A stretch of DNA of 64,000 nt from Akkermansia muciniphila (GCA_945860285.1 CAMAQB010000003.1:1-64000), one strand, 5' to 3'. Shown: positions 41,661 to 63,079, counted from the stretch's first letter. Made by a program: numbers and translations. The notes: a model not told the origin generated them from the sequence alone.

Positions 41661-41705
41661 CCGATTGAACAATCGCAGCACGACCGGGCCGCCACACGGT
41701 GCCCG

Positions 41706-42644
41706 GTGACTTGTTCCCAACCGTCCCGCACACCATCCATGGCCCACGTCAGCGACTTTCTCAAGCCCAGCGATCTACATCGCATCTCCAACCTTCAGGT
41801 GTTGGCGCGCCAGGTCGTCGAAGGCTTCACCAGCGGTTTTCATCGTTCGCCCCACAAGGGCTACAGCGTCGAATTCAAACAACACCGGCAATACGTGCAG
41901 GGCGATGAAATCCGTCGGCTCGACTGGAGCGTGTTCGCCCGCAGCGACCGACATTACATTCGCGAATACGAAGAGGAAACCAACCTGCGTTCCACCATCA
42001 TCCTTGATCGCAGTGGTTCGATGAACTACGCCGGCAGCACCGCCGGAGGTGTCAGCAAATACGAATATGCCACCAAGCTCGCCGCTTGTCTTGCCTACAT
42101 GATGGTCCATCAGGCGGATGGTGTCGGTCTAACAACATTCGACACCAAAATCCGCAGCCACATCCCGCCGCGCTCGCGGGTGAGCCATCTGCGGGTGATT
42201 CTCAATGAGCTGGAAAAAGGCAGGCCCGGAGGCGAGACCGAATTGGGTGAAGTATTCCATGAGCTCGAGGCCAAATTGCAACGTCGCGGTCTGCTCATCA
42301 TCATTTCCGATTGTTTCGGCGAGGTTGCGAGTTTTCTCAAGGCACTGGCTCACTTCCGTCATGCCCGCCACGAAATTCTGGTCTTTCAAATCTGGGATCG
42401 CGACGAATTGGAGTTTCCCTTCAAAAGCTGGACCCAGTTTGACTGCATGGAGCAAGAGGGTGTCAAACATTTGCTGGACCCGGCGATGCTTCGACAGTCG
42501 TATATGGAAAACCTGGCCGCCTTCCGCGACAGCCTGGTTCGCGGCTGCCGCCGCAACAACATCGACCTGGTGCCATTCTGCACCGACGAGCCCTACGCCA
42601 ATGCGCTCGCCGCCTACATGACCCGGAGACTCGGACGTCGATGA
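41706..42644 (+). CDS. DUF58 domain protein (start probably MAHVSDFLKP)
   Basis: SGFHRSPHKGYSVEFKQHRQYVQGDEIRRLDWSVFARSDRHYIREYEEETNLRSTIILDRSGSM. Confidence 0.95.
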   Translation: MTCSQPSRTPSMAHVSDFLKPSDLHRISNLQVLARQVVEGFTSGFHRSPHKGYSVEFKQHRQYVQGDEIRRLDWSVFARSDRHYIREYEEETNLRSTIILDRSGSMNYAGSTAGGVSKYEYATKLAACLAYMMVHQADGVGLTTFDTKIRSHIPPRSRVSHLRVILNELEKGRPGGETELGEVFHELEAKLQRRGLLIIISDCFGEVASFLKALAHFRHARHEILVFQIWDRDELEFPFKSWTQFDCMEQEGVKHLLDPAMLRQSYMENLAAFRDSLVRGCRRNNIDLVPFCTDEPYANALAAYMTRRLGRR

Positions 42645-44803: not shown

Positions 44804-47238
44804 AGCACGAAACCGTCACCCACTCCCTGCGTTGGGCCGGCTCCTGGCCCTGGTATGTCGGCCTTACAGCCGCTCTGGCATTGGCGCTTGCCGCGTGGCT
44901 GCTCTATCGGCGCGAGATCGGCGGAATGCGCCCCCTGTTCCGCTTTTTGCTGCCGCTGCTGCGCGCTGCGGCTGTGTTTCTCATTGTCATCCTGCTCGGC
45001 GGTCCCATTGTTCATCACCGCACTGTCATCGGTCAACTCGCGCGACTTATCATTCTGGTTGATGGCTCAGCCAGCATGCAACTCGCCGACCCCGGCATGG
45101 ATGCGAACCGCAAGCTCCATATTCTCGATCGACTCGGCATGCTGGAACCTGGCACCGTGAATCTCGCACAACCGCTGGCAGCCACCACCCTGGCCAGCGA
45201 CCCCAACCCCGCGGTGAAAAACGCGCTGGCGAAATTCGACACGCTGCCGCGCTGGCAACGTGTGCAGGCGTTGTTGTCGGGCGGCAAACCCGGATCGGGC
45301 GTTTTGGACAAGCTGGCGGGCACCTTCGATGTGCAGGTGGCAACGCTCGATTATGGCAATGTGAATTTGTTGTGGCGGTCCGGCGCACAAGACAAACCCG
45401 TGCTGCGCGAATTGCCACAACCTCAGGGCAGCATCACCGACCTGACGAGCGGACTGGCGTATGCCGCCAATATTCCGCAACAAGCGGGTCCCGGTGCCCT
45501 GTTGTTGATATCCGATGGCCAACACAATGCCGGTGAATCGCCCCTGGATACGGCGAAAATTCTATCGGGCAAAAAACTGCCGGTGTTTGCGATTGGCACG
45601 GGCAGCGACCGCGCGCCGCGCGACCTGGCGATCCTGCGCTGCGATGTGCCCGACAGCGTTTTTCACGAGGACGTTTTGCGCGGCGAGGTGCTGTTGAAAG
45701 AAGAGGTCGCCGCCGGTCTGCCGGTCACCCTCAGCATCGCGGATGGAGACAAGGTCATATGGGACAAGCAACTCATCACCGAGGCCAACACCCATCGGGT
45801 CGTGCCGTTCGAAATTCCCATCAAAGAACTCGCCGCCGCGCGGCTCAAGGCCCTGCCAGAGGGGGCGGAAACATCCTCCGTCGCGCTCGATCTCAAGGTG
45901 AACGTTACTCCCATCGATGGCGAACGGGAGCTTTCCAATAACCAAAGCCGGATCCGCTTTCGCGCCGTGACCCAGAAGCGCAAGATACTTCTGTTGGATG
46001 GTCGCCCGCGCTGGGAAACCCGTTATTTGAAAAATCTCTTCCAACGCGATGAAAAGTGGGAAGTCAATGCGGTGATCGCCGGCATGAAGACCGACACGGG
46101 ATTCGATCGCGGTAGCAAGGAGGGCAGTTTCCCTGTCGACAAGGCGACACTTGATACCTACGAACTGGTCATTTTCGGGGATGTTCCAAAAGCCCTTTTC
46201 AAAGCAGAGGAGTTGAAGTGGCTGGCGGATTTTGTCGGCAAACGCGGCGGAGGAATGATCATGATCGATGGTGCCCGTGGCCACTTGCGCGAGTATGCGG
46301 ATACTCTGCTGGGCCCGCTGCTGCCGGTCGACCTTGGCAACGTCAAACCAGCGGCCGCCGTGAGTTCTCTGATTCTCTCTGGCCGGGCCCCGGAGCTGGC
46401 ATCCTTCGCCTTGAGTGCGGAAAGAGCTGCCAATGCCGGAGTGTGGGCGAATCTGCCGGTGCCGCGTTCGATCGCAAGTGGCACGCCATTGGCGGGCTCC
46501 GAAGTGCTCATCGAAGGCGAATCAACCGCCGGTCGATTGCCGCTGGCGGTGCTGCGGCCTTTCGGTGCGGGCCAGGTGTATTACCATGCGTTCGATGACT
46601 CATGGCGCTGGCGTCTCGAAGTGGCCGACAGCCATCATGTCAGGTACTGGAATCAGGTTGCGGCTTTTGTGTTGGAGGAACCTTTTGCCGCGCGCGACAA
46701 AAACCTTTCGCTCGATGCAGGAAAGTTGACTTACGAGCCCGGCGAACAGGCCGCGATCCGCGTTCGGCTGCGCAGCGGGGAGGGCAAAACCGTGACCGAT
46801 GCCACAGTCGCGGCCGTAATCTGGCGCGATGGCAAACGGGTGGCTGAAGTCGGTCTCACTCCCGATGCGGGTGGGGTGTTCCGGGGCAAAACCGCAGCGC
46901 TCGATGCCGGAGATTACGAAGTCACCATCGAAACCGCCGCCATTCCCGAGGGCAAAATCAAGGTGCGCACGGAGTTCAAAGTCGAAGCCCGGCAAAATGC
47001 GGAGCGCACGCTGCTCAGCGTCAATGAGGACCTGCTGCGTCAAATCGCGCTCACCAGCGGCGGGCGATATTTTCGTGAGGAGGATGCCGATCAACTCGAT
47101 CCATTGTTGGAGCCCTTGACCGCAGGTACAATCCGGGAAAGCGAGACACCGCTGTTGGAAAGCCGCTGGTGGTTTGGCCTTGTCGTGATACTGTTGACCA
47201 TGGAATGGCTGCTCCGCAAGCGTGTCGGCATGCTTTGA
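44802..47238 (+). CDS. Membrane VWA/GATase1-like protein
   Basis: MKHETVTHSLRWAGSW.., two N-terminal TMs, LIILVDGSASMQL, LLLISDGQHNAGES, C-terminal TM; ATGA overlap with the previous gene; listed ORF begins further upstream at 44713. Confidence 0.85.
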
Positions 47239-47272
47239 ATCCCATCATCCCCTTGTCTAACATTTCCACATC

Positions 47273-50200
47273 ATGAACTCCCATCCCGATCCCGCCATTC
47301 TGCAACTCTTGCAGACGTTCGCGCGACGCCGTCGACGACTGCTCATGTTGCGCGGCGGACTGATCACGCTCGCCGTGTTGGTTGTGGCGATGATCCTGGT
47401 CGCCGCGCTGGACTACTGGCTTCCGCTGATGCGCGAATCGATGCGCTGGGTATTCAGTCTGACAGCCTATGCATTGGTGTTGGTGGTCGCATGGCGGCAG
47501 TGGATTCGCCCGATGATGGACGCGCCGGACGAGCGGCGACTGGCGCGCATTGTTGAACACGCCGCGCCCGACCTGCACGAGGATTTGCTTTCAGCAGTCG
47601 AACTAGGTCAATCCACAGGGGGGCATTTCGACTCCGCGCAATTTCGCGCGCTGCTGCAGTCCGATGTCGCTGCGCGGGTGCAGGGAGTGGAGGTCAAGTC
47701 GCTGTTGCCTGTCGGTTTGCTAAATCGCTATTTCCGCGTCACGTCGATCATCGGAGTGCTGGTTTTGGCGCTGATGATATTCAGCGGTCTGCGCTTCGGC
47801 AACTTGTTGCTGCGCGCGCTCATGCCCGGTGCCAATCTGGATCGGGTGTCGGCCACCCAGATTGTCATCATTGAGCCCAACCCTCCGAGCCAGACCGTGC
47901 CGCAAGGCGACGCGTTGCGATTGGAGATCGAATTGCAGGGTCGACCAGCGACCAGCGCACGACTGGAAACGGAAGGCGCGAGCCAGGGGCGGGTAGTGAC
48001 GGAAATGAGGGCTCTGGGGAACAACCGTTTTGCCACCGCCATCCAGGTTGGACGAGAGAACCTGCGCTACCGGGTTCAGGCCGGTGACGGACTCACCCGC
48101 CGCTATGATCTCAAAGCCGTGGCCCGTCCGTACGAGCTTGCATTCGAAAAAACCTATCAATTTCCCGACTACTCCCAAATGACACCTACAACAGTGCAGG
48201 AACCGGGTGGCGGGCTCAGCGCGCTGGAAGGAACGATGGTCGATTTGAAAATTTCCACCAGCCAGAAAGTGAAGAGTGGCGAGTTGCGCATGGAACAAGG
48301 AGTCGAGCTGTCCGTTGTTCCTTTGACACCGTTGCCCGACGGTCGACTGGCCGCGCGAGTCCCCATGTCCGCAAGTGGAAGTTATCGTGTTCATCTGGTG
48401 GCCGCCGACACAGGATTCGACAACAAATTCAGTCCTGAATACGAATTGCGTGCCGAGCCGGATCTGGCACCCGTGCTGAAACTCACGGAACCCGATCAAG
48501 ATTTGGTGGCCGCCGCCGATCAAAGTGTCAAGCTCGTCGCCACGGTCAGCGACGACATCGGTTTGGCGCGCATCATCCAGCACGTGAAGGTCAACGAGGG
48601 CGAGTGGAAACAATCCCCGCTCAAGGAAAATGCCGGACGGCACTGTGATGTCGAGTTCGATTGGGATCTCGCTTCCGCAGGTGTCAAACCCGGCGATGTG
48701 GTCAGCAGCAAACTGGTTGCCACCGACCTGAAGGGCAATTCGGCGGAGTCGCGCACCCTGCAAGTCCTCGTCGTCGCGAATCGGGAAACCAATCGCGTCG
48801 CTGGACTGGCGAGCCGCAGCGCGCTCTATCAATCATTGCAGGCTCTGGCCGCTGCCGCTGTTGCATTTGATGCCGCCGCCCTGCTGGCGCGCAATCAATT
48901 TGATCAAAGCGAAGACAGCGGGCCGAATCGCAAACCGGTGCTGGCGGGTGTCGTGACGACCCGTGCCGATTGCGAAACCAAGCTATCCCAGGCGTGGCAG
49001 GCCCTGAATGTCGTGCTGCGCGATGGAGCGGCGGGTTACGAAAGTTCCGACCTTGTTTTGATGGGACGGTTGCTCGGCAACATCCACAATGGCGAGTTGC
49101 GGAAAGCCGACCGGGTGCTTGAACTCCTTGATGCCAATCCAGCCATGCCCGCTGCACGTGAACTCATGCGCGCGGTTCACGAGAGCGGTGGCCGAATGAA
49201 GTCGCTGGCAACTCTGGCTCGGGATGTTGATCAATTCAATCTCAGCGCCGGACAGGTCGATGTGGTGGGCGAACTCACTCTCGTTCTCGGGAGCCAGGTT
49301 GCGCGTATCCGCACGCTGGCACAGCAAAGCAAAACCCCGGACGATTGGCAGCAGGTGGCGACGCGGATGCGCGCCTTGTTGAGTGTCAGCAAGAGCGTCG
49401 ACGCCGTGTTGGAAACGATGAAAAATGGAGGGGGCCCACTGGCTGCGGATGCCGATGGGTTGCTTAACGGAGGGCTTTTTCTGGACATCCAGGACTGGCT
49501 TCAACGCGACATCCCCCCGGAACAACTCAGTGCCCAGATGATGGATCAGGTGGAAAATTTCAACCGTCGTGTCAGCAAAATCCAGGACCAAATCGGCCGC
49601 ATGCGCGAGAATTTTTCCCATCTGGCCGCAAAGGCGGTCACCGACCAGGGGAAGGTGCTCGCGACAAGCCCTGAAACACCTGCTGCGTTGGTGGCGAGCA
49701 TGCACCAGCGGCTCATGGAGGAAGTGGCCCCGACATCGAATTGCGTGCAACTCCTGCGTCAGGAGCAGGCGGTGCTTGCCAAGTTGTTAGATCTCCTGCC
49801 CCAGGATCGGACCGCTCTTGATGAGTTGGCTTGGCAGACCATGGCCGCGACGCTCAAAGTCCATGCCGACCTTGAGGAAACCCGCAATCTTGCTGACAAC
49901 GCATTTGTCAGCGACCTGCGCCGCGCCACTCTGGCGGTGCAGGCGCTGCAGACTCTGGCTCCGGGCGACGGAGCGGATGTGTCATCGGCCCGTCTTGATG
50001 CGATAGAGCAAAGTTTGCGGATGCTGGAAACCGGCCACAACCTGCAGGAACTGGTGAACGGCTGTGCCGCGCTGGTGGCGATGGAGCGTTGGGAATTCCG
50101 CATGCCTCAAGGTCGCACGGTGGAACGCCGCGACTGGGCATGGCTCGCCACGCGCGTGCGCATGGCTCCCGGCGAGTTCATGAAGTGGGAGTGGAAGGAT

Positions 50201-52477
50201 GAGGCCGCGCGCAACGCCGTGGCTGCAACAGTGGCCCAGCTCCGGGAGATTCCGGCAAGCCCGCCATTTCTCACGGTTGAGGCGGAAATGGGCAAACGCC
50301 GGAACTTGCGTTATGCGATCACCACACGCAATGAGCTCGAACAAGTGTCGGGCAAGCTCAGGGCCGCTCTTGCGCCGCTGCAGCCATCCATGGAAACCGC
50401 GCGGCGCAATTTGGCAAAGCTTGCTCCGAAAATCAGCGAACTCGCACTCGCCCTCGCCAAGGAGGAAGCGGAGTTGAAAAAACAATCCGCGCAACAAGTC
50501 GAGACCGCCGAGACCACCGAACCCGCTGAAAACAGCAACCGCAGCCGACCGCAATGGACTCGCCAGCAGCAGATCAATCTCAAGATCGATTCTTTGAAAG
50601 ACCTGATTCGCGCCGATGCCAACGAACAAAACATTCTGAAAAAAGACGAACGGGATCGGATGCGCGATGCCGATGATGCGATTGCGATGCTCAAGGACCC
50701 GCCGCCCGCCGCCGCGCGGTTTTTGTTGTCGGCCACACAGGGCGTGCAGGCCGAGGGACAAAAAAACGATCTCGTGCAGGCGGTGGAGCAGGAGCAAAAA
50801 GTTGTCGACGCGCTGATCCGCATCGGTCTTCATTTCGAGGCTCTCGAACAAGGGAAGGACCCCGACCAGACCCGCGCGGAGCTGCGCCAGGCGGAGGAAG
50901 AACTTGGTATCAAGGATGCTCTCGACGAACAATTTGGCAAAGCGGAGACTCTCGCGGAAATGACGGAACAGAGCCCCGAGGAGATGCTCAAGGACTTGGA
51001 AGCCAGGTTGCCGACGAATCCGGAAATGCAGCGCGAACTCGATCAGATCGCCAACACCGATTTGGCGCTTGCCAGGGACCTTCTCCAGAGGGCCGCGAAG
51101 GCGGAAGCCGGTGTCGCCACTACCGTCGACGAGCAGAAGGCCAGGGACGAGAACGACATGGCCAAACTCGGCGTGCTCGATGCCGCCCGACTCGCGGCTG
51201 CTTGTGCCAGAGAGTCCCAAACAGCGGCGGCCTCCGCCCTGCAGCTCAGCGGGCAAGCCGCCAACCCTCCTGGCAAGGAGCATGCACAGTTGTCAAACGA
51301 TCAAGCCGCCGCTGCAATATCAATTGCGGATGACATGGTGGTGGCGGCCCAGCGCCTGGAGGCCGGCCAAAATATCGCGGAGATCGTCAATGCATCGGCG
51401 GCAGTGATTGAAAAAGTCGGACTATTGATTCCGCGCTGCAATCAGGTCCGTGAGCATGCCAACCCGGCAGCGCAGATTTTCGGGACCGAAGCGAAAAAGG
51501 TCGGCCCCGATCAGGCAATCTGCCAACAGGCGGAACAACAGGCGACGCTTTGCGCACAAAAATCCGATCAGGCGATGGCTGCGGCACGCCAGGCCGAGGC
51601 CGCAGCACGCCACGCCGCCGAGAGCGCCCAGGCAATGGCGAAAATTCCGCAAGGTGCCCCTGTGAACCGCAAACTGGCGGTAGCGGCGCTGCGGCAGATG
51701 CCGGTGAAAATCGATGCCGCGGACGCGGCGGTCAATCTGGAGCGGGCCGCCCGTCACGAGCAACGGTTGAACCAGTCGGACGGTGGTCAGAATCTAACAA
51801 AGCTTGCCGCGCAGGTCGATCACGCGGTGAAAAACGAGGTGTTGGCGGCGGAGTCTGCCCTCAGCACCGCGCCGCAAGCTGCGCTGGCGCAGGCTCCTGT
51901 GCAAAAAGCCAGCGCGGAGCTGGCGCGACTTGCCGATGCCCTGAAACAAGTGGCCGATTCGCCGCCGGCATCTTCGCCCATGGCTGCCCCCCCTGGTTCG
52001 CCGGCTACCAGCGCGACACCGGCCGAGCAACAGGCGATGGCTCGCGCGCTCGATGCGCTCGATCAACAGCTTAATGAAGCTGCCGCCGCAGCGGCGGCAG
52101 CAGCGGCGGCCGCCGCGGCCAAAGGGGGACCACCGATGGCGGGCAATCAGCCTGGTCCTCCCGGCGGCATGGCGCAAGGCATGATGGCATCGATGCGCCA
52201 GGGACGTTCGTCGATGCCCTCGCCGATGCCCGGCATGCCCAGCCCCGAGAGCGAACCGATGGAAAAATCCCTTGGCGGTGCCAAACTGGATGCGGCCGGT
52301 CCCTCACAGGGTCAGGCTCCGGAATTGCAGGCCCTGCAAAAAGGTGACTGGGGCAAACTGCCCAAAAAACTTGCCGAACAACTCAGCAAAGGACAAAACG
52401 AGACGATCCCCGCCGAATATCGCGAGGCGGTGGCCACGTATTATCGGGTCATTGCCGAAAAATCCAAAAAACCATGA
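47273..52477 (+). CDS. 1734-aa membrane protein (DUF4175-like architecture), Ala-rich C-terminal region
   Basis: N-terminal TM segments, Ig-like/beta N-terminal part, long helical Gln/Ala-rich region, poly-Ala and Met/Pro/Gly-rich C-terminus. Confidence 0.8.
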   Translation: MNSHPDPAILQLLQTFARRRRRLLMLRGGLITLAVLVVAMILVAALDYWLPLMRESMRWVFSLTAYALVLVVAWRQWIRPMMDAPDERRLARIVEHAAPDLHEDLLSAVELGQSTGGHFDSAQFRALLQSDVAARVQGVEVKSLLPVGLLNRYFRVTSIIGVLVLALMIFSGLRFGNLLLRALMPGANLDRVSATQIVIIEPNPPSQTVPQGDALRLEIELQGRPATSARLETEGASQGRVVTEMRALGNNRFATAIQVGRENLRYRVQAGDGLTRRYDLKAVARPYELAFEKTYQFPDYSQMTPTTVQEPGGGLSALEGTMVDLKISTSQKVKSGELRMEQGVELSVVPLTPLPDGRLAARVPMSASGSYRVHLVAADTGFDNKFSPEYELRAEPDLAPVLKLTEPDQDLVAAADQSVKLVATVSDDIGLARIIQHVKVNEGEWKQSPLKENAGRHCDVEFDWDLASAGVKPGDVVSSKLVATDLKGNSAESRTLQVLVVANRETNRVAGLASRSALYQSLQALAAAAVAFDAAALLARNQFDQSEDSGPNRKPVLAGVVTTRADCETKLSQAWQALNVVLRDGAAGYESSDLVLMGRLLGNIHNGELRKADRVLELLDANPAMPAARELMRAVHESGGRMKSLATLARDVDQFNLSAGQVDVVGELTLVLGSQVARIRTLAQQSKTPDDWQQVATRMRALLSVSKSVDAVLETMKNGGGPLAADADGLLNGGLFLDIQDWLQRDIPPEQLSAQMMDQVENFNRRVSKIQDQIGRMRENFSHLAAKAVTDQGKVLATSPETPAALVASMHQRLMEEVAPTSNCVQLLRQEQAVLAKLLDLLPQDRTALDELAWQTMAATLKVHADLEETRNLADNAFVSDLRRATLAVQALQTLAPGDGADVSSARLDAIEQSLRMLETGHNLQELVNGCAALVAMERWEFRMPQGRTVERRDWAWLATRVRMAPGEFMKWEWKDEAARNAVAATVAQLREIPASPPFLTVEAEMGKRRNLRYAITTRNELEQVSGKLRAALAPLQPSMETARRNLAKLAPKISELALALAKEEAELKKQSAQQVETAETTEPAENSNRSRPQWTRQQQINLKIDSLKDLIRADANEQNILKKDERDRMRDADDAIAMLKDPPPAAARFLLSATQGVQAEGQKNDLVQAVEQEQKVVDALIRIGLHFEALEQGKDPDQTRAELRQAEEELGIKDALDEQFGKAETLAEMTEQSPEEMLKDLEARLPTNPEMQRELDQIANTDLALARDLLQRAAKAEAGVATTVDEQKARDENDMAKLGVLDAARLAAACARESQTAAASALQLSGQAANPPGKEHAQLSNDQAAAAISIADDMVVAAQRLEAGQNIAEIVNASAAVIEKVGLLIPRCNQVREHANPAAQIFGTEAKKVGPDQAICQQAEQQATLCAQKSDQAMAAARQAEAAARHAAESAQAMAKIPQGAPVNRKLAVAALRQMPVKIDAADAAVNLERAARHEQRLNQSDGGQNLTKLAAQVDHAVKNEVLAAESALSTAPQAALAQAPVQKASAELARLADALKQVADSPPASSPMAAPPGSPATSATPAEQQAMARALDALDQQLNEAAAAAAAAAAAAAAKGGPPMAGNQPGPPGGMAQGMMASMRQGRSSMPSPMPGMPSPESEPMEKSLGGAKLDAAGPSQGQAPELQALQKGDWGKLPKKLAEQLSKGQNETIPAEYREAVATYYRVIAEKSKKP

Positions 52478-53556
52478 GCCGGCCTTTTCTACCAAATATG
52501 CGGATTTTCCCGAAGCGTCGCGCCCCGCTGCACTTTCTGTGCGCACTCGCCCTGATTCTGCCGCCCCGTGCCGCGCAGGCCGACCAGAAAATCGATGACG
52601 CGTTGAAACTGGCCACGGGATTTCTGGTTTCCCAACAAAAACCGCAGGGGATGATCGGCGATCAATTTCCGATGCCCAACACGGCACTGGCGGTGCTGGC
52701 TCTCGCCGCCTGCGGTCACCAACCCGGCGAGGCGACACCGGAGGGCCAGGCGATGCGCAAGGCGATCGATTATGTGTTGCTGCCGGACAACCAGACTGCG
52801 GACGGATATTTCGGCAAGGTGGACAACTCGCGCATGTATGGTCATGGGATCACCACCCTGATGCTTGCCGAAATGCTGGGCATGGGACTCGATGAAAAGC
52901 AGGACGCGCTGATCCGTCAAAAGTGCAAACTCGGAGTCGAATTGATCCTGCGCGCCCAGGGCATGCGCAAGGATCCGCAGAACAGTGGTGGCTGGCAATA
53001 CGAACCCGACAGCAGGGGATCGGACTTGTCGGTTACCTGCTGGCAGACCATGGCACTGCGCGCGGCGCAAAACGCCGGAATTGATGTGCCGCGTGAGGCG
53101 GTTGACAAGGTTGTCGGCTACATGAAGCGCTTGTACAAACCCGTGGGCGAAACCCGCGGGCCCACCGTTCCCGGTGGTTTCGGTTACTCCTCGCCCGCCA
53201 CCACCATTTCGACCACCGCGGAAGGCTTGCTGGCGATGCAGGTCTGCGGTCAATACCAGGCCGATGAAGTGCTGTCCGCATCCGAACTGTTGTTCCCGCT
53301 GGATCTTAAAAACGAAAAGCAATGGTTCTACTACACCACCTATTATTACGCCCAGGGCATGTATCAACGCGGCGGCAAACATGCCGACACCGCACAGCGC
53401 ATGGTGCCGGCCACCTTGTTGCCGCTGCAATCCCGCGAGGGATGGTGGCAGAGCGTCGGCGGAGAGGAGGCGGGACCCGGCAAAACCTACTGCACCTCGC
53501 TGGCGATTCTGGCCCTTGCGGTGAAGAATCATTTCCTGCCGATCTACCAACGCTAG
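52474..53556 (+). CDS. Secreted prenyltransferase/squalene-oxidase-repeat (alpha/alpha-toroid) protein
   Basis: Signal-like N-term; FLVSQQKPQGMIGDQFPMPNTALAVLAL; GGWQYEPDSRGSDLSVTCWQTMALRAAQNAGI. Confidence 0.8.
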   Translation: MSRPFLPNMRIFPKRRAPLHFLCALALILPPRAAQADQKIDDALKLATGFLVSQQKPQGMIGDQFPMPNTALAVLALAACGHQPGEATPEGQAMRKAIDYVLLPDNQTADGYFGKVDNSRMYGHGITTLMLAEMLGMGLDEKQDALIRQKCKLGVELILRAQGMRKDPQNSGGWQYEPDSRGSDLSVTCWQTMALRAAQNAGIDVPREAVDKVVGYMKRLYKPVGETRGPTVPGGFGYSSPATTISTTAEGLLAMQVCGQYQADEVLSASELLFPLDLKNEKQWFYYTTYYYAQGMYQRGGKHADTAQRMVPATLLPLQSREGWWQSVGGEEAGPGKTYCTSLAILALAVKNHFLPIYQR

Positions 53557-53741: not shown

Positions 53742-56567
53742 ATGATCAGAACCTTGCGAAAGTTTGTCCTGGCGATTTTCTTGCTGCTCTCACTGGATGC
53801 CGGTGCCCAGGAGGACATGAACCGCGTTTACAGCGAAGGCATGAGGGCGTATCTTGCCAAAAACTATTCAGTGGCAATTGAGAATTTTACCAAAATTCTT
53901 GAGAAAACCAAGAATACCACCACGGAGGAGGTGATCTATGTTCTGGCGTTTTCCCATTACAACGAAAAGCAATACGAAGATGCGGCCAAGATCTTCAACA
54001 TGCACGCGACGCTGTTTCCCACCCACCAGAATGCTTCGGAGGTGCAGCTTTTCCTGGGTCGCAGTCTTTTGAATGTCGAGGGCAAGGAGGATGAAGCCAT
54101 CAAGGCACTTGGCAAAGCGGCGAGAAATCCCGAGTATCTTGAAGAGGCCCGTTTCTATGCGGCCGATGCCTACATCAACAAGAAGGACTACGCAAAAGCC
54201 GCGGAAATCCTCGAAAAGGCGATTTCGGAAAATGTTTCCGGTCCGGGCATGATGCGCGCCTGTCTGAAGTTGATCGACATTTACATTGAAGAGGAAAAAC
54301 TTGTCGAGGCTGTCGCGCTGCTGAAACGGGTGCAGGGCACCTCCAGTTATCCGGATGTCATCGTTGTCGTGAACCACCGCCTGGTGCAGATCGGCGACAA
54401 ACACCTGGAGGCGAAAAATTATCAACTGGCCCTGTCGACATACTCGTCGGTCAAACCCCATGCCCAGGTGGTCTCCCTACAGACCGAGCGCTTGGAGCAA
54501 TTGACGGCCTACGAAGGCGTGCTGAAGCGCGGGATGGAGGCGCTTACTAAAGTCAAAAAGCCGGTGCCGCAGAAAATGCAGGACCGCCTCGCCCTGATTG
54601 TCGGCACCGTTGAGTTTGTCAATAGTTCGATGAAGGAGATCAAGGCGATCACCGACTACGACGTGATGCTCCGCTACCGCATCACCCGCTGTTATTTCAA
54701 CATGGATCGCTACTGGTATGCAATTGCAGGCTTTGAATCCATCGTCAGGGATTATCCGAATTTTGCGGAGGGTTCGATCTGCTTGTATGGCGCGATCTAC
54801 TGTCAGACGAAACTGGACCTGAGCGACAGTACGGTCGCCAACTGCACTTGGTATCTGGACAAATTTCCCAAGGGTGTCTATGTCGATCAGGTCGCCGAGA
54901 TCAAATCTGGAATTCTTTTCAAACAGGAAAAAATGAAAGAGACCTGTGATTTCCTCGTTGAATTCCTGAAGAAAAATCCCGGCATCGAGGGCAAGGAGTT
55001 TCTACGCAGCATTCTCGCCAACACCCGGTTTGCGGATGGCAAGTTTGACCAGGCCGCTGCGGATTATGATGCCATGATGAAGGACTATCCGAAATCGGGA
55101 ACGATGGAGGAGTATTTCTATCGTCGGGCACTTTGTGATTTCCTCAGAAACGACTACGAGAACACCCTCAAGTCCTTCCAAGCCTACGAGCAAAAATATT
55201 CGCCGGGCACTTTTACGTCCGACATCCGCTATCGTCGCGGCATCATCCTGCTGGCTCAAGCAAGCCAGTCGACCGATCCGAAAAAGCAGGATGATTACTA
55301 CGAGCAGATCTTCGCGTCGATGGACTTGTTGTTGAAAGCCCAGGACACGGAAAAATACCGCGGACAGATTTACATCCTTCTTGCCGATGCCATGAAGGCC
55401 AAGGGCGGCATGGAGGTTGCTGCGGCCACCAACTACGCCAATGCTTTGAAGTTTGCCAATGGCGACAAAACGGTGATTCAGTATGCACTTGAAGAGGCGA
55501 CCACCGCTCTCAAAGAGGGTCGGAGGTGGAAAGAGTTGACCGATCTCTGGAAAGTTTTTCTCAAGGACAACCCCGGCCATCCCATGGAATTGCGCGGTGT
55601 CAGCGAACTCACCAAGCTGTTGGTGCGTGAACAGAAGTTCGATGAAGCCAAGAAGATGATGGTGCAGTACATCATGAAGGACATCCACAATCCGCGCTCG
55701 GAATATTGTGAGATGTTGCTCTCCCAGTATGCTTCGCTCTTTGTCCCTAAAAAGACCTTTGCGAAAAAAGGGGAGAAAACGGCCGCCGCCGATCCCGCTC
55801 AGCTTGCCGAGGAGGTCATTTCGGGTTTGCAACTGCCCGAGGCAAATCACACCGTCACCTATCTCGCCCGGTTGCAGTTCACCAAAGGCCAGTTTTTGAC
55901 CTACATGCGCAAGCCGGAACTTTACTATGCAACCCTGGACACCATTGCTTCGATCGCGAAACCCGAGGATCTAAGTCCGACAATCCTGACGCTGGTGGGG
56001 CAGCGGTTGATCGATACGAAGAAATACGACGAGGCCAAGGCGTATTTCACGCATTTGCGCGATAGTTTTGCCGATTCATTTTACTCGGAGGCCGGTCCGA
56101 TCGGCATTGGCGAGGTCGAACTGGCTCTCGCCGAATACCCCGCCGCGATTGCCGCGTTTGACGAAGCTCTGGCCAAACCTCAGGGGGGAATGCTGAAGGA
56201 GGCCACATTTGGCAAGGCTCGAGCTTTGTTTGGTCTGAAACAGTACGAGGAAGCAAAAAAACTTTTTGAACAAATCATCGGCACCAAGGAGTGGCGGGGT
56301 TTGGAAAAAGCGGGAGCATTGTATTACATGGGGGAGATTGCTTATAAAGCGAAGGATGGCACGGCTGCCCATGGCTTTTTTCAACGCGTCTATGTGTCCC
56401 ATTCCGCCTATCCCGAGTATGCGATCAAAGCCTACTTGCGGGCATCCGACATGCTGCGCGCTCTGGGCCAACTGGAGGAATCCAAAGCAACACTGCGCGA
56501 ACTCGCCCAACATCCCAAATTCAAGAACCTTCCTGAAGTGATCAAAGCCACCAAGTCGGTTGAGTGA
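53742..56567 (+). CDS. Secreted TPR-repeat protein
   Basis: 941 aa; signal peptide MIRTLRKFVLAIFLLLSLDAGAQ; repeated helical-hairpin motifs (AFSHYNEKQYEDAAKIF; YINKKDYAKAAEILEKA). Confidence 0.82.
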   Translation: MIRTLRKFVLAIFLLLSLDAGAQEDMNRVYSEGMRAYLAKNYSVAIENFTKILEKTKNTTTEEVIYVLAFSHYNEKQYEDAAKIFNMHATLFPTHQNASEVQLFLGRSLLNVEGKEDEAIKALGKAARNPEYLEEARFYAADAYINKKDYAKAAEILEKAISENVSGPGMMRACLKLIDIYIEEEKLVEAVALLKRVQGTSSYPDVIVVVNHRLVQIGDKHLEAKNYQLALSTYSSVKPHAQVVSLQTERLEQLTAYEGVLKRGMEALTKVKKPVPQKMQDRLALIVGTVEFVNSSMKEIKAITDYDVMLRYRITRCYFNMDRYWYAIAGFESIVRDYPNFAEGSICLYGAIYCQTKLDLSDSTVANCTWYLDKFPKGVYVDQVAEIKSGILFKQEKMKETCDFLVEFLKKNPGIEGKEFLRSILANTRFADGKFDQAAADYDAMMKDYPKSGTMEEYFYRRALCDFLRNDYENTLKSFQAYEQKYSPGTFTSDIRYRRGIILLAQASQSTDPKKQDDYYEQIFASMDLLLKAQDTEKYRGQIYILLADAMKAKGGMEVAAATNYANALKFANGDKTVIQYALEEATTALKEGRRWKELTDLWKVFLKDNPGHPMELRGVSELTKLLVREQKFDEAKKMMVQYIMKDIHNPRSEYCEMLLSQYASLFVPKKTFAKKGEKTAAADPAQLAEEVISGLQLPEANHTVTYLARLQFTKGQFLTYMRKPELYYATLDTIASIAKPEDLSPTILTLVGQRLIDTKKYDEAKAYFTHLRDSFADSFYSEAGPIGIGEVELALAEYPAAIAAFDEALAKPQGGMLKEATFGKARALFGLKQYEEAKKLFEQIIGTKEWRGLEKAGALYYMGEIAYKAKDGTAAHGFFQRVYVSHSAYPEYAIKAYLRASDMLRALGQLEESKATLRELAQHPKFKNLPEVIKATKSVE

Positions 56568-56595
56568 AATCTTTCCATCGTATTCCCAATCCATC

Positions 56596-57597
56596 ATGCG
56601 CTCATTTTTTCTCCTAACATTGTTGCTCCTGGCCTCGATTTCGAATTCCCATTCTCAGGAGTATCTGCTGAAAAACGGCCGACGTTTCCCCGCCAGCGCG
56701 GTGAAGATCAGCGGGATGAACTGCACTGCAACTGTTGCGGGTGAGGGTGGCATCGAGACCGTAGTTTTCACCATCAAGGACATTTCTCAGGCCACTTTTG
56801 CCCCGGTGCCCGACATGGCGAAGGCCCGCGATTTGATCGTGCAGAAAAAATTCGATGAGGCCTTCACGGTGACCGATGTCATTCTCAAGGCTACCGTTCA
56901 GTTCAAACCTCTGCCTGGCAACCCCTGGGTGGAAGCCCTGCTGCTGCAACTGGATGCTCTGGAGGGGAAGAAAAAGAAGTCATCCGATTCAACCCAGGCC
57001 GCAGCGCTGATTTCGCTCACACCCGATGAAAATGAATTGGTTACGAAGATGATTTCGATTGTCGATTCCGAGCACACGCCGGCGGGAATCGAGAAAATGA
57101 AGACATTGGCAAAGGAGACAAACATTGGTTACGTTCAGGCGCGCGCCCAATTGCGCATCGCCGATGTGCAGGCGGACTTTGGCAATCTTGAGCAGGCGGC
57201 GAAGGAATATCTCTGCGTTCCGATTTTCAATGCCACCGACAGTTTCCTCTCTTTCCGCGCCACCATGTCGGCTGCAAACTGCTTGTTTCAGATCAAGCGC
57301 GGCGAGGATGCCATAAAGATTCTCGATTACTACCTGAGCGACAATCCAAGCACGAAATACAAGACCATGATCGAAACGGAGAAACTCCGCTTCAAGACCC
57401 CCACCAAAGACGAGGAAGGCGCGGACAATGCTGCCGCCAAGGGCGCTGCCGCAGCAGACAGCACCCCCGCCAAGGATGAAGCGGAGGAAAAAAAGGAATC
57501 TCCCAAGGAAGAACCGGAAGAAGAAAAGAAAGAAGAAACAGCCAAAGAAGAACCAACGCCTGACAAAACTGTTGACAAAACTGAAACCAACAAATAA
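56596..57597 (+). CDS. Secreted hypothetical protein with Lys/Glu-rich C-terminal tail
   Basis: Signal-like MRSFFLLTLLLLASISNSHSQE; C-term DEAEEKKESPKEEPEEEKKEETAKEEPTPDKTVDKTETNK. Confidence 0.75.
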   Translation: MRSFFLLTLLLLASISNSHSQEYLLKNGRRFPASAVKISGMNCTATVAGEGGIETVVFTIKDISQATFAPVPDMAKARDLIVQKKFDEAFTVTDVILKATVQFKPLPGNPWVEALLLQLDALEGKKKKSSDSTQAAALISLTPDENELVTKMISIVDSEHTPAGIEKMKTLAKETNIGYVQARAQLRIADVQADFGNLEQAAKEYLCVPIFNATDSFLSFRATMSAANCLFQIKRGEDAIKILDYYLSDNPSTKYKTMIETEKLRFKTPTKDEEGADNAAAKGAAAADSTPAKDEAEEKKESPKEEPEEEKKEETAKEEPTPDKTVDKTETNK

Positions 57598-57628: not shown

Positions 57629-58495
57629 ATGCAATCCACATATCAAATTGTCCGCCGCCTAGTCGTCAAGTCATTCCGTTTGCTTGCCCTCGTGGTGGCC
57701 ATTGGCTTTGTCTGCCCCATCATGCCCGTTGAAGCACAAACTCCCGCCACAGCAGCTGCGGGGGAAACGCCGCCACCGGCTCCGAAAAAAAAATCCCTTT
57801 TCGCAACCATTGCGCAGGGTGGATGGGTCATGGTGCCCATCGGTCTGACCTCGGTGTTCACTGTTTACCTTGTGGTCGACATGTACATGCGCACCGCGCA
57901 GAAAAAACTCTGCCCTGACTCCGAGGTCTCCAAAGCCCGCCACTTTTTCCAAGCGGGTGATTATGTTGCCTGTTACCAGTCGATGAAATCCGTGCCCTGC
58001 GCCTACAACAACTGTGTGAAATACGCGCTCAGCTTTGTCGGCAAAGGCAAGGAGCAAACGGAGGAAGCATTGATGATGGAGGTGGAGCGCGAAGGCAACC
58101 GCCTGCAAAACCGCATCAACTACCTTTCTGTGATCGGGGTTTGCGCACCGATGATCGGATTGCTCGGCACCGTGGTCGGGATGATGGGCGCCTTCGACTC
58201 GCTCGGCAAGGGCGGAGCGGCGGGCGGTGGCAATGAAACTTCGGAACTTTCCCACCACATCGGCGAAGTGTTGGTTGCGACAGCCGCCGGCCTTTTCATC
58301 GCGATTCCCGCTTTCATGTTTTTTTACCTGTTGCGCAATCACCTTGCAGCGCAGATTCACTTCTTGGAAGATCAGGTGAACGCTCTTTTCCGCAACATGC
58401 CCTATGATCACTTCCATGGTTTGGAGATTGGCGAGGAGGTCACGTACGCCGCGGTGCCCAACTGGGTCGAGGGCGGCGTGCCGGTAGAGGCGTGA
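57629..58495 (+). CDS. MotA/TolQ/ExbB proton channel family protein
   Basis: RINYLSVIGVCAPMIGLLGTVVGMMGAFDSLG...ELSHHIGEVLVATAAGLFIAIPAFMFFYLL. Confidence 0.95.
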   Translation: MQSTYQIVRRLVVKSFRLLALVVAIGFVCPIMPVEAQTPATAAAGETPPPAPKKKSLFATIAQGGWVMVPIGLTSVFTVYLVVDMYMRTAQKKLCPDSEVSKARHFFQAGDYVACYQSMKSVPCAYNNCVKYALSFVGKGKEQTEEALMMEVEREGNRLQNRINYLSVIGVCAPMIGLLGTVVGMMGAFDSLGKGGAAGGGNETSELSHHIGEVLVATAAGLFIAIPAFMFFYLLRNHLAAQIHFLEDQVNALFRNMPYDHFHGLEIGEEVTYAAVPNWVEGGVPVEA

Positions 58496-58530: not shown

Positions 58531-58968
58531 ATGGCTGGAAGCGTAGGCGGTGGTAATGGCAGTGAACCTGAGTTTCAGGTGGCGCCGATGATTGACGTGC
58601 TTCTGGTGCTTTTGATCTTCTTCATGAGCATCACCACGGACCAGATTCTCAAGGTGGACAAGTCGATCACTCTGCCACTCGCTCCCGATGCCAAGCAGCG
58701 CAAGGTGGATCTGCAAAACCAGGCGGTGGTGAACATCGACTGGCTGGCGGCGGAGAATCGCGCGGTTGTGAAGTTCGGCCAACAGCTGTGCGACCCGATG
58801 GAGCAGGTTGCGGAATTCATCACACCGATGAAAACGGCCAATCCGAAGTTGCAAATCATCGTCCGCAGCGATGGTGATACCCCGGCAATCGAAGTACAAA
58901 AAGTCATCGAGCAAATTGCCGCCGGCGGCGTTGATGACATTTCCCTTTCCGGCATCAATCGCAAATGA
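58531..58968 (+). CDS. ExbD/TolR family protein (copy 1)
   Basis: EPEFQVAPMIDVLLVLLIFFMSITTDQILKVDKSITLPLA: single TM with conserved Asp. Confidence 0.93.
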   Translation: MAGSVGGGNGSEPEFQVAPMIDVLLVLLIFFMSITTDQILKVDKSITLPLAPDAKQRKVDLQNQAVVNIDWLAAENRAVVKFGQQLCDPMEQVAEFITPMKTANPKLQIIVRSDGDTPAIEVQKVIEQIAAGGVDDISLSGINRK

Positions 58969-58980
58969 TCATCCCATCCC

Positions 58981-59430
58981 ATGGCCAATAGAAACAAACA
59001 CAAGAGATCCACTGAAATTCACATGGGCTTCCAGATCGCACCGATGATCGACGTTGTCTTCGTGATCATGCTGTTTTTCATGGTCATGGCGGGACAGGTG
59101 CAAAAGGAGCAGGAACTGAAGCTCAAACTACCCGGCAGAGCCGTGGCTTCGGAAGAGGTGGAGGCGATCGAGGAGACCCAGATCCGCGTGCTGGAAAGCG
59201 GCGATGTCCTGCTCAACGATGAGCCGATGGGTGCGCCGGGGGATGCCAAGTTGGTGGAAATGACCGCCACCTTGATCCGGCTGAAACAGGCGTCCGATGA
59301 CGCCCGCAGCAAAGTTGTCTGCACGATTGTGGCCGACGAATTAGCCCCTTTCCAACGTGTCGTAGATGTGCTAAACTCCCTCTCAGTGGCACGGATTGCC
59401 AACGTCACATTTGAAGTTCCCGCAGAGTAA
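58981..59430 (+). CDS. ExbD/TolR family protein (copy 2)
   Basis: MGFQIAPMIDVVFVIMLFFMVMAGQVQKEQELKLKLPG: single TM with conserved Asp. Confidence 0.93.
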   Translation: MANRNKHKRSTEIHMGFQIAPMIDVVFVIMLFFMVMAGQVQKEQELKLKLPGRAVASEEVEAIEETQIRVLESGDVLLNDEPMGAPGDAKLVEMTATLIRLKQASDDARSKVVCTIVADELAPFQRVVDVLNSLSVARIANVTFEVPAE

Positions 59431-59453: not shown

Positions 59454-61136
59454 ATGAATGATTACAACCAGTATGATCAGCAGCAAGGATTCGATCAATA
59501 CAACCAGCCGAACGAATTCAATGATCAGTTCGGGGGCATTCCACAGCCACCCGCCAAGACGGGACTGGCGTTGTGGATGGCCAAGCTAGGCATGGGATCC
59601 TTCATGGTTTCGATGTTGGTCCACGCGATTTTCATCATTCTTGCGATCTTTTTCATTTTCCGGTGGATCAAACCACCCCCGGAGCCTATCCCTGACTTCA
59701 TTCCCGGCGGTGGCGGCGGCGGTGGTCAAAACGGCGAAGTGGCCCACAAAATCAAGACCTCGATGAGGCGCACCGTTTCCGCTGCTCTGAGCAACAAGCG
59801 GATCACGGCGAATACGCAGACTTCCACGTTCACCCTGCCTGATACCACGGACATGCCTGCGGTTCCGTTGCCTTCGGATGTTCAGGCCAGTTCTGGTGAT
59901 GGTGGTGGCGCGGGTGGGGGCCATGGCAAGGGCATCGGTCGCGGCATTGGCTCGGGTGAAGGCATGGGCAGGGGATTTGGCAAGGGCAAAGGCACGTTTT
60001 CCCTGATTCCCACAATCATGCAAGGCCGCTGTACTCCTGCGGAACGGATGCGGATGGTTCGCGAGGCGGGCGGCAACGAGGCATTGGAAACAGGGGTCAA
60101 AAAATCCCTCGATTGGTTGAAGAGTCAACAGAAACCCGATGGTTCGTGGGGGGATGTCCACAATGTGGCGATGACAGGCTTGGCATTGCTTTGTTATCTG
60201 GGGCATTGTGAAGATACCCAGTCAGCCGATTACGGTCCGGAAGTTTCCAAGGCGATCGGCTATCTGGTCAACATCGGCATGGCCAACAATGGCAAACTTT
60301 CATCCAATTTCGGTGCCAACTCCTGGTGTTACGAACACGGCGTCGCCACCTACGCGCTGGCCGAGGCACTGGCTTTCTCGAAGACCTTGAAGTTCCCCAT
60401 CTCGAATTTGGAATACGTGGTCTCCCGTGCGGGGCAAGCAATCATTGACGGTCAAAATCCCAATGGATCCTGGGATTACAAACTCGACGCGTCCTCGTCG
60501 CGCAATGACCTTTCGGTGGCCGGTTGGCAGATGCAGGCTCTGAAGGCTGTCAAGACATCCGGTGCGACGGTGAATGGTCTCGAAGCGACAATGCGCAAGG
60601 CGGTCCAATACCTCGGCAATAAAGTAGGGGAACAGGGGGCATACATTGACGACGGCATGTTTGCCTATAGTGGTGGTTCGCACAGTCCGGCTTTGTCAGC
60701 CGTGGGTGTGCTTTGCCTGCAACAGTGGAGCAAGGGCAATACCGGAGAGGCGAAGGCGGGGATCAAATACATCTCGAACGGTCTCAAACAACGCACCGGC
60801 GATGCCAAGGGCGCGGCGTTTCCCGGTCAGGATGTCTATGCATTCAATTACAAGACCAACTGCGATCTTTACGCATTCTACTACGCCAGTCAGGCGATGC
60901 GGAATGCCGGTGGTGGGGATTGGGCGGCCATGAACAAGGCGATCTTGGAGGAAATCGTCCCGAATCAGGCGGTGGATGGTTCTTTCGCCATGCCCGCCAA
61001 GATGCCCCATTTTACCAACAAGATCTATGCCCAGTGCCTGAACACCCTGATCATGGAAGTCTACTACCGTTTCCTGCCCGCAACGAGCGCGGGCAGCAGC
61101 AGCGGTGGTTTTGGTGGTTTGGATGCCTTGCGCTGA
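59454..61136 (+). CDS. Toroid (terpenoid-cyclase-like repeat) protein with TonB/TolA-like N-terminal anchor, copy 1
   Basis: N-term GSFMVSMLVHAIFIILAIFFIFRWIKPPPEPIPDF + Gly-rich linker; SQQKPDGSWGD, GQNPNGSWDYKLDASSSRNDLSVAGWQMQALKA repeats. Confidence 0.85.
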   Translation: MNDYNQYDQQQGFDQYNQPNEFNDQFGGIPQPPAKTGLALWMAKLGMGSFMVSMLVHAIFIILAIFFIFRWIKPPPEPIPDFIPGGGGGGGQNGEVAHKIKTSMRRTVSAALSNKRITANTQTSTFTLPDTTDMPAVPLPSDVQASSGDGGGAGGGHGKGIGRGIGSGEGMGRGFGKGKGTFSLIPTIMQGRCTPAERMRMVREAGGNEALETGVKKSLDWLKSQQKPDGSWGDVHNVAMTGLALLCYLGHCEDTQSADYGPEVSKAIGYLVNIGMANNGKLSSNFGANSWCYEHGVATYALAEALAFSKTLKFPISNLEYVVSRAGQAIIDGQNPNGSWDYKLDASSSRNDLSVAGWQMQALKAVKTSGATVNGLEATMRKAVQYLGNKVGEQGAYIDDGMFAYSGGSHSPALSAVGVLCLQQWSKGNTGEAKAGIKYISNGLKQRTGDAKGAAFPGQDVYAFNYKTNCDLYAFYYASQAMRNAGGGDWAAMNKAILEEIVPNQAVDGSFAMPAKMPHFTNKIYAQCLNTLIMEVYYRFLPATSAGSSSGGFGGLDALR

Positions 61137-61187
61137 TTTTTCCGCAGGATTTCAATAGGGTCAAGTAAATCGCTTGACGATCCGGAT

Positions 61188-61220
61188 TCCTTTGATTACG
61201 TTACTAACGTTATCAAAGGA
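61188..61220. promoter_or_regulatory. 33-bp near-perfect palindrome between the two toroid genes
   Basis: TCCTTTGATTACGTTA-C-TAACGTTATCAAAGGA; 15/16 arm positions pair; not followed by a T-run. Confidence 0.55.
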
Positions 61221-61441
61221 CTTATGGTAGGTGAGGGACAATCCGTTGTTGGTTCATGCCGGTGCTCCACTGCACGGATGCCGGAAAAAGCGCGGCAACG
61301 CGAATGGGTCGCTTGGCGTGAAGCTCCGATGGTGACCGGGTGGGGCCGCAGATGGTGCCCCCGCAGCGCGGCATGGTCTGCGCGCACATGGATTTTTTCC
61401 GGCATTCCCAATCAACCATCAACCCAAAACCTGACAAATCC

Positions 61442-63079
61442 ATGAAAAATCCACCTGATCGTTTTTCGTTAGAAAATCAAAACTCCGATGTGCCGTCGAC
61501 CGGCTCCCGCAACGGTTTCAAGCAGATGCTGGCAAAAATCGGCATCGGTTCCTTCGCGGTTTCCCTGTTTGTCCATTTTGCTTTTGTTCTGATTGCCGTG
61601 TTTTTTCTATTCAAGTGGGTGACACCTCCGGTCGTGGAAACGCAAACGTGGCCCGAGCACATCGGTGGCGGCGGTGGTGGCAACAATGGCGAGTTGGCGC
61701 ACAAGATTAAAAAAACGGTGAGCCAGGCGCAGAGTCACTCTGCCGTCGGCATGCGGATTACCGTGAACAACAGTGATGCGATATGCGCATTGCCGGTGGA
61801 GGCGGTGCTGCCTTCATTGCCATCGCTTTCAGAACAAACCGCAAGCAAGGGGCTCGGCGGTGGTGTCGAGGGTGGCAAGGGACTTGGCAAAGGTCCTGGC
61901 AACGGCCCGGGTCATGGGCCCGGCACAGGCCCGGGAAGCCATTTGCGGGGGTTCAGCAGCCTCTCTCCGATCATACAAGGCCGTTGCAGCGCGAGCGAAC
62001 GAATGCGGATGATCCGTGAGGCTGGTGGCAATGAAGCAGTGGAGGAAAAGGTGAAGAAATCGTTGGACTGGTTGAAAAGCCAGCAAAATGCCGATGGATC
62101 ATGGGGTGACACCCGGCAGGTGGCGATGACCGGGCTGGCACTCCTTTGTTATCTCGGACATTGTGAAGACACTTCATCGAACGATTACGGCGTGGTAGTC
62201 TCCAAAGCGATCGGGTATCTGGTCAACGTCGGCATGGCCAACAACGGCAAACTGGCATCCAACATGGGCGAAAATTCCTGGTGTTATGAACATGGCATCG
62301 CCACCTACGCCCTCGCCGAGGCCTTGGCATTTTCCCGCACCCTGAAGTTTCCCAATGAAGACCTGAAATCCGCGGTGACCAAAGCAGGCCAGATCATCGT
62401 TGACGGCCAGAACGTCAATGGTTCGTGGGATTACAAGCTTGATGCGTCGTCGTCGCGCAATGATCTCTCGGTGACCGGATGGCAGATGCAGGCCTTGAAG
62501 GCGGTGAAATCCTCGGGCGTTGACGTGAAGGGGGTGGAAGCGACCATCCGTGCGGCGACAAAGTACATCAGTCGCAAAAACAGTGATCAGGGAGCATTTC
62601 TCGATGATGGCATGTTTGTCTACAGTGGCGGCACTCACAGTGCGGCGATGTCCGCCGTGGGTGTTCTCTGTCTACAGCAGTCGGGCAAGGGAAACTCGGC
62701 CGAGTCAAAATCAGGCATTCGATACATCTTCAACGGACTCAAGCAGCGCACGGGTGAAGCGAAAGGAGCGGCATTTCCCGGTCAGGAAGTTTATGCGTTC
62801 CGCTATACGTCCAACTGTGATCTTTACGCATTTTATTATGCCAGCCAGGCGATGAGGAATGCGGGAGGAAGCGAATGGGCCGCGATGAACAAGGCCATCC
62901 TTGAGGAAATTTTGCCCAACCAAGCGGTCGACGGATCGTTCGCCATGCCAGCGAAGATGCCGCATTTTTCAAACAAGATTTATTGCCAATGCCTGAACAC
63001 CCTGATCATGGAGGTTTATTATCGATTCCTGCCGGCGACCAGTTCGGGCAGCGGACATGGATTTTCCGGATTGGAATGA
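61442..63079 (+). CDS. Toroid (terpenoid-cyclase-like repeat) protein with TonB/TolA-like N-terminal anchor, copy 2
   Basis: N-term GSFAVSLFVHFAFVLIAVFFLFKWVTPPVVE + Gly-rich linker; high C-terminal similarity to copy 1. Confidence 0.85.
   Translation: MKNPPDRFSLENQNSDVPSTGSRNGFKQMLAKIGIGSFAVSLFVHFAFVLIAVFFLFKWVTPPVVETQTWPEHIGGGGGGNNGELAHKIKKTVSQAQSHSAVGMRITVNNSDAICALPVEAVLPSLPSLSEQTASKGLGGGVEGGKGLGKGPGNGPGHGPGTGPGSHLRGFSSLSPIIQGRCSASERMRMIREAGGNEAVEEKVKKSLDWLKSQQNADGSWGDTRQVAMTGLALLCYLGHCEDTSSNDYGVVVSKAIGYLVNVGMANNGKLASNMGENSWCYEHGIATYALAEALAFSRTLKFPNEDLKSAVTKAGQIIVDGQNVNGSWDYKLDASSSRNDLSVTGWQMQALKAVKSSGVDVKGVEATIRAATKYISRKNSDQGAFLDDGMFVYSGGTHSAAMSAVGVLCLQQSGKGNSAESKSGIRYIFNGLKQRTGEAKGAAFPGQEVYAFRYTSNCDLYAFYYASQAMRNAGGSEWAAMNKAILEEILPNQAVDGSFAMPAKMPHFSNKIYCQCLNTLIMEVYYRFLPATSSGSGHGFSGLE

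Follow-up and report, generated by a model that had tools for sequence, protein, structure and literature searches.

The window analysed here, a 64,000-nucleotide stretch of Akkermansia muciniphila DNA (GCA_945860285.1 CAMAQB010000003.1:1-64000), carries an operon on one strand in which genes in the order TPR-TPR-ExbB-ExbD-ExbD are followed, at its end, by two genes for membrane-anchored proteins with an alpha/alpha-toroid head. These two proteins are very probably periplasmic force transducers of the TonB/TolA type, in which the toroid replaces the TonB/TolA C-terminal domain. The features, with positions counted from the first letter of the window, are as follows.

53742..56567, + strand: TPR1, a periplasmic TPR protein of 941 amino acids with a signal peptide, recognised by Pfam TPR families; first operon gene, its slot upstream of ExbB kept across the phylum
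56560..57597, + strand: TPR2, a second TPR-like periplasmic protein in a conserved slot; opens at TTG 56560, weak TPR match
57629..58495, + strand: ExbB/TolQ-type motor subunit (PF01618, 93.6 bits), with Ser at the E. coli ExbB Ser34 position and pore Thr148/Thr181 and Pro190
58531..58968, + strand: ExbD/TolR-type subunit 1 (PF02472, 58.2 bits), APMID helix with the proton-carrying Asp
58981..59430, + strand: ExbD/TolR-type subunit 2, heterologous to subunit 1 (PF02472, 66.3 bits), APMID
59454..61136, + strand: toroid-headed transducer copy 1, 560 amino acids (open reading frame, alignment, AlphaFold2, Foldseek)
59589..59663, + strand: transmembrane anchor of copy 1, MGSFMVSMLVHAIFIILAIFFIFRW (hydropathy, alignment)
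59610..59612, + strand: Ser53 of copy 1, the -4 position of S-x3-H, codon TCG (sequence)
59622..59624, + strand: His57 of copy 1, the anchor His, codon CAC (sequence; invariant in homologues)
59664..59999, + strand: periplasmic Pro/Gly-rich linker of copy 1 (alignment), with PDFIP just after the helix at the candidate position of an ExbD-binding D-box
60000..61133, + strand: alpha/alpha-toroid head of copy 1 (AlphaFold2, Foldseek, Pfam SQHop_cyclase_C in relatives)
61442..63079, + strand: toroid-headed transducer copy 2 (alignment; the reading frame may also open at GTG 61340 or ATG 61388)
61562..61564, + strand: Ser of S-x3-H in copy 2, codon TCC (sequence)
61574..61576, + strand: His of S-x3-H in copy 2, codon CAT (sequence)
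61940..63076, + strand: alpha/alpha-toroid head of copy 2 (alignment; SQHop_cyclase_C 31.6 bits, cut-off 26.1)

The two transducers are paralogues in tandem; by alignment they share 67% identity overall and 78% in the toroid. The copy 2 reading frame opens at GTG 61340, contains in-frame ATGs at 61388 and 61442, and can be aligned with copy 1 from about 61448. Both window ExbDs carry the APMID motif with its transmembrane Asp, a feature of the 5:2 proton motors ExbBD and TolQR. Loci from relatives were annotated with profile hidden Markov models built from the window genes, 80 from named Verrucomicrobia genomes and 136 as further stretches from relatives and the phylum. Sampling covers one phylum, in draws of about 290 genomes, and as its last extension deliberately favoured relatives lacking the anchor His, frequencies are taken from the count of 88 ExbB-adjacent anchors. 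In these loci the order TPR1-TPR2-ExbB-ExbD1-ExbD2-transducer recurs across Verrucomicrobiota in dozens of families.

The initial annotation had read an S-x3-H motif, as used by TonB and TolA, in the N-terminal helix of both toroid proteins, and translation of the open reading frames reproduces it exactly to the base. The helix reads GMGSFMV-S53-MLV-H57-AIFIIL in copy 1 and GIGSFAV-S-LFV-H-FAFVLI in copy 2. The motif stands above chance because S-x3-H occurs in 0/236 N-terminal hydrophobic segments from other reading frames of the fetched loci, where even [SA]-x3-H is found twice (2/236). Hydropathy and charge asymmetry place 146/157 anchors with the N-in signal anchors of the TonB/TolA family. 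It is scarcely credible that the helix is cleaved off as a signal peptide, with its S-x3-H a coincidence. It is N-terminal and hydrophobic, as a signal peptide would be, but the anchor His lies at a median of residue 44 (range 19-340) and the net charge falls from +2.0 before the helix to -1.8 after it, a position and a positive-inside asymmetry that fit an N-in signal anchor and make cleavage unlikely; nor would coincidence account for the invariant His or the empty background.

Conservation of the anchor is high for the His and graded for the Ser. Among transducers adjacent to ExbB the His is present in 80/88, and the others carry Pro (five), Asn, Gly or Val (one each). The window's own clade has the anchor W-x-K-x-G-G-G-S/A-L-x-x-S/A-x3-H, and in its order-level class-H anchors the His is the sole invariant helix residue (65/65) while other positions vary, with Ser (24) or Ala (41) at -4 and Gly or Ala at +7. 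Across the near clade the -4 residue is Ser in 36 and Ala in 48 of 84, which rules out strict S-x3-H as the family rule there. Distant families have a different helix, GP-x-x-S-x3-H, with Ser at -4 in 71/73 and Leu at +7 in 50/73, a pattern (S-x3-H-x6-L) as in TonB and TolA. Conservation of the motif, on which the earlier claim had been made to depend, therefore stands for the His in 80/88 and for the Ser in distant families, and fails for the Ser, relaxed to Ala, in the window's clade only.

Within the order, an ExbBD operon adjoins 40/58 His anchors versus 0/22 His-less anchors of the RNSTISS type (Fisher 8e-9). The toroids of this latter class N look, from their sequences, like His-loss derivatives, and RNST anchors with His exist (loci L203 and L204). 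As a clean negative control class N is valid only in part, a Pro-flanked strand after the helix being kept. Toroids with an RNST-type or similar anchor, without the His and without ExbBD nearby, were seen at L083, L088, L090, L095, L097, L101-L103, L119 and L205, the last from genus g3 of the same family; these proteins often stand in tandem arrays of at least two.

In E. coli, cryo-electron microscopy (cryo-EM) places TonB Ser16/His20 in contact with ExbB Ser34/Trp38 (PMC12215075). Our strongest result is the co-variation of the anchor His with this Ser34, and comparison of sequences indicates that the anchor helix co-evolves with the adjacently encoded motor. The ExbB alignment included the E. 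coli proteins ExbB and TolQ from the MG1655 record, and its set was enlarged beyond a first sample whose non-His anchors were essentially one clade. Where the anchor has the His, the docking Ser on transmembrane helix 1 (TM1) of ExbB/TolQ (E. coli Ser34, TolQ Ser28) is present in 81/81 of the paired ExbBs; where the anchor lacks it, the Ser is present in 3/22, the remainder having Gly (13), Leu (3) or Ala (3). Of 32 columns conserved at ≥95% in the His group, none is lost as strongly as Ser34 (Fisher 6e-18, the next column 1e-11, p-values that ignore relatedness), and the pore residues Thr148, Thr181 and Pro190 are unchanged in 81/81. An IQ-TREE phylogeny of ExbB indicates that His and Ser34 were lost jointly at least twice independently, in one clade of 19 and in L252, which is nested among His-bearing relatives with 99/100 support. 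No paired ExbB has lost Ser34 while its anchor kept the His. In two transducers at separate places on the ExbB tree Asn takes the place of the anchor His and Ser34 is kept, in agreement with an earlier report that Asn can replace TonB His20. Comparison thus lends good support to the proposal of TonB/TolA-like coupling to ExbBD. A large ExbBD-adjacent toroid lineage carries Pro or Val for the anchor His (L178, L197, L200, L231, L244, L251-L257, L262-L269) and Gly, Ala or Leu for ExbB Ser34; a D-box-like strand is kept in several members checked.

After the helix, the Gly-rich linker that the initial annotation described as common to both copies is present as GGGGGGGQNGEVAHKIK in copy 1 and GGGGGGNNGELAHKIK in copy 2. 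In the TonB system ExbD captures a Pro-flanked strand of alternating hydrophobic and hydrophilic residues just after the helix, the D-box (Loll et al. 2024, PMC10907165). A strict D-box pattern is found in 26/58 distant GP-type His anchors, where shuffling predicts 4.3, and in 7/15 GP anchors that lack the His, where it predicts 1.1. In the window's clade its place is taken by a VDF[LM]P-type motif (55/85 near relatives versus 1.7 expected), and copy 1 reads PIPDFIP after the helix, a partial likeness to the D-box. From its sequence and position, the short VDF[LM]P/PDFIP motif is a candidate ExbD-binding site.

The head of copy 1 is predicted to be an all-helical toroid, with an AlphaFold2 model built on an alignment with 73 relatives reaching a pLDDT of 86.5 and a pTM of 0.89. 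Foldseek against the PDB matches it to alpha/alpha-toroid enzymes, namely GH76 mannanase, squalene-hopene cyclase, AprG, MstE and GH105, at E 1e-6 to 1e-3, template-modelling (TM) scores of 0.4-0.6 and identities of 9-16%, and these include both (alpha/alpha)6 and terpene-cyclase toroids. Pfam SQHop_cyclase_C is found in 73/73 relatives (E ≤ 0.001) and the prenyltransferase alpha-alpha toroid family in 22/73. The catalytic DxDD of class II cyclases is not conserved, because only one Asp column is invariant among the 73 toroids. Invariant polar residues (C, E, Y, D, S, W, Q) suggest, from the alignment, a binding pocket in the toroid.

A conventional TonB or TolA could have been the dedicated partner of the window ExbBD, and the genome (3.70 Mb, 98% complete), with eight MotA/ExbB and seven ExbD matches, was surveyed for such proteins. 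TonB_C (PF03544) is confined in this genome to contigs C34 and C84, each time beside a different ExbB, and TonB_2 (PF13103) has no match anywhere in it; the TonB-like protein on C84 itself carries S-x3-H (SAVTH). A dedicated classical partner is rejected on these grounds. As no classical TonB or TolA adjoins the window ExbB-ExbD-ExbD genes, the toroid proteins therefore fill that slot, and the fold evidence from Pfam, AlphaFold2 and Foldseek bears out the earlier claim that a toroid stands where a TonB/TolA C-terminal domain would be expected.

The toroid is not the only head found on this anchor. The search for relatives also gave matches confined to anchor and linker, 14 proteins with other heads, all of which have the His and 12/14 of which have Ser at -4. 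A vWA-like head is found on the same anchor at L122-L125, L127, L128 and L130-L132, and a PA14-like head on the same anchor and Gly-rich linker at L121, L126, L129, L133 and L134; PA14 matches Pfam above cut-off in L121 and L126 and vWA below cut-off in L124 and L132, the rest being assigned by motif. In L123 and L132 a vWA protein with a GGGS-type anchor and linker occupies the same operon slot, and in L126 a toroid and then a PA14 transducer stand beside ExbBD. Force transducers with vWA heads are already described for PVC (Planctomycetes, Verrucomicrobia and Chlamydiae) and other bacteria, in the gene order TPR, tolQ-like, two tolR-like, transducer (Williams-Jones et al. 2025, PMC12204202); that text nowhere uses the words toroid, terpene, squalene, prenyl or PA14, and our literature searches found no report of toroid or PA14-like heads on such transducers.

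The vWA transducers (PMC12204202) share with our loci this operon, found in the window and in relatives, and resemble the window proteins in their three-part layout, which in the vWA transducers comprises a transmembrane helix with an SHLS motif and essential-type His, a disordered linker with a motor box, and a globular head; they differ in that the head is vWA whereas the window proteins carry an alpha/alpha toroid. TonB and TolA are alike in the single N-in helix, the S-x3-H contacting TM1 of ExbB/TolQ, the linker and an operon with a 5:2 proton motor, and, for distant toroids only, in the Leu at +7 and a D-box-like strand. Unlike them, the window proteins have no TonB/TolA C-terminal domain and are encoded with two different ExbDs and two TPR partners, and neither Pal/TolB nor a TonB-dependent receptor is encoded in the window operon. 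Squalene-hopene cyclase, prenyltransferase and TED toroids share the fold, Q-x-DGSW-type repeats and the SQHop_cyclase_C match, whereas the window heads are predicted to be membrane-tethered and periplasmic, with no conserved DxDD and low identity. On sequence grounds, the window proteins are thus neither TonB/TolA, for want of that C-terminal domain, nor vWA transducers, having another head, but most likely work like both.

By analogy with TonB and TolA, the N-in helix would dock on the outer face of the ExbB pentamer that its own operon encodes, with His57, together with Ser53, packing on the TM1 Ser that corresponds to E. coli Ser34. The ExbD pair would hold the stretch just after the helix (D-box or motor box), and proton flow through ExbB5-ExbD2 would then pull or move the Gly/Pro linker so that the toroid head could deliver work to a ligand in the periplasm or the outer membrane. 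This target of the toroid is probably organised by both TPR proteins of the operon. Several observations weigh against force transduction of this kind. Neither window copy has the second half of SHLS (Leu at +7, Ser at +11), the residues there being A/A at +7 and F/L at +11, and copy 2 has no clear D-box motif after its helix. The position of E. coli Trp38 is Val, Ile or another residue here, with Trp/Tyr one residue further on in many. Eight of the 88 ExbB-adjacent transducers lack the His, which is hence not absolutely required, and within the order 18/58 His-anchored toroids do not lie beside an ExbBD operon. The support consists of sequence comparison and single-chain models.

Two other functions were considered. 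The toroid proteins might dock on ExbBD and, without transmitting force, regulate or scaffold the gating or localisation of the motor, as could be read from the suggestion that the contact between the TonB transmembrane helix and ExbB may only localise TonB while ExbD pulls (Loll et al. 2024, PMC10907165). The window copies, which keep S-x3-H with a D-box that is weak in copy 1 and missing in copy 2, and a linker that is Gly-rich and hence flexible, would suit such a role. We nevertheless regard it as unlikely, given that the excess of strict D-boxes in distant families (26/58) implies a complete coupling set. Less probable still is that the toroid is a tethered periplasmic enzyme acting on glycan or lipid, for which the ExbBD neighbourhood is incidental or only a means of positioning. 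Its fold matches are indeed enzymes (GH76, AprG, squalene-hopene cyclase), it has several invariant polar positions, and toroids on His-less anchors without nearby ExbBD exist (22/22 in class N). Set against these are the unconserved DxDD, an identity of ≤16% to any enzyme with TM-scores of about 0.4-0.6 and the co-variation of Ser34, which incidental linkage fails to explain.

Some further features of the locus were observed. A near-perfect 16-nucleotide inverted repeat found by repeat search between the transducer genes (61188..61220, TCCTTTGATTACGTTA / TAACGTTATCAAAGGA) may be an operator or attenuator by which copy 2 is controlled separately. The N-terminus of the window ExbB (57629-57780) has a segment resembling a signal peptide, and a periplasmic Pro/Ala extension, which recalls the long ExbB of Serratia. 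In L049, L056, L058, L060, L062, L069, L070, L072, L073, L075 and L078 a second ExbB-ExbD-TPR set directly follows the toroid gene. Directly upstream of the window operon on the same strand (40593-53556) lie genes for a MoxR AAA ATPase, DUF58, BatA/VWA and VWA proteins, a 1734-amino-acid DUF4175-like protein and a secreted soluble toroid; the MoxR-DUF58-BatA genes were not counted as part of the system, since in the nearest relative (L041) no such genes were recognised next to the operon.

To our knowledge, envelope force transduction was long regarded as limited to TonB or TolA heads. Comparison of the window genes with their relatives suggests a family of membrane machines, as yet little known, whose heads can be exchanged. 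We lean, if only slightly, towards a wider picture in which Verrucomicrobiota build modular proton-driven envelope machines from one TonB-like anchor with swappable toroid, vWA or PA14-like heads on TPR-ExbB-ExbD-ExbD motors, the toroids being effectors that deliver force to an envelope ligand, and in which one large sub-lineage has rebuilt the coupling, replacing the His mostly by Pro or Val and Ser34 along with it while keeping the ExbD-binding strand. The paired natural losses of anchor His and ExbB Ser34 provide a test by evolution, independent of cryo-EM, of the contact between TonB and ExbB that this method revealed. Anchors in which Asn has naturally taken the place of the His while Ser34 is retained are relevant to a long-standing issue, namely whether this His carries protons or makes a structural contact. 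The His-less sub-lineage offers ready-made variants for asking how a transducer couples without it. If the wider picture is true, a whole phylum couples the same helix to toroid, PA14-like and vWA heads, and the TonB/TolA anchor would be a portable module.

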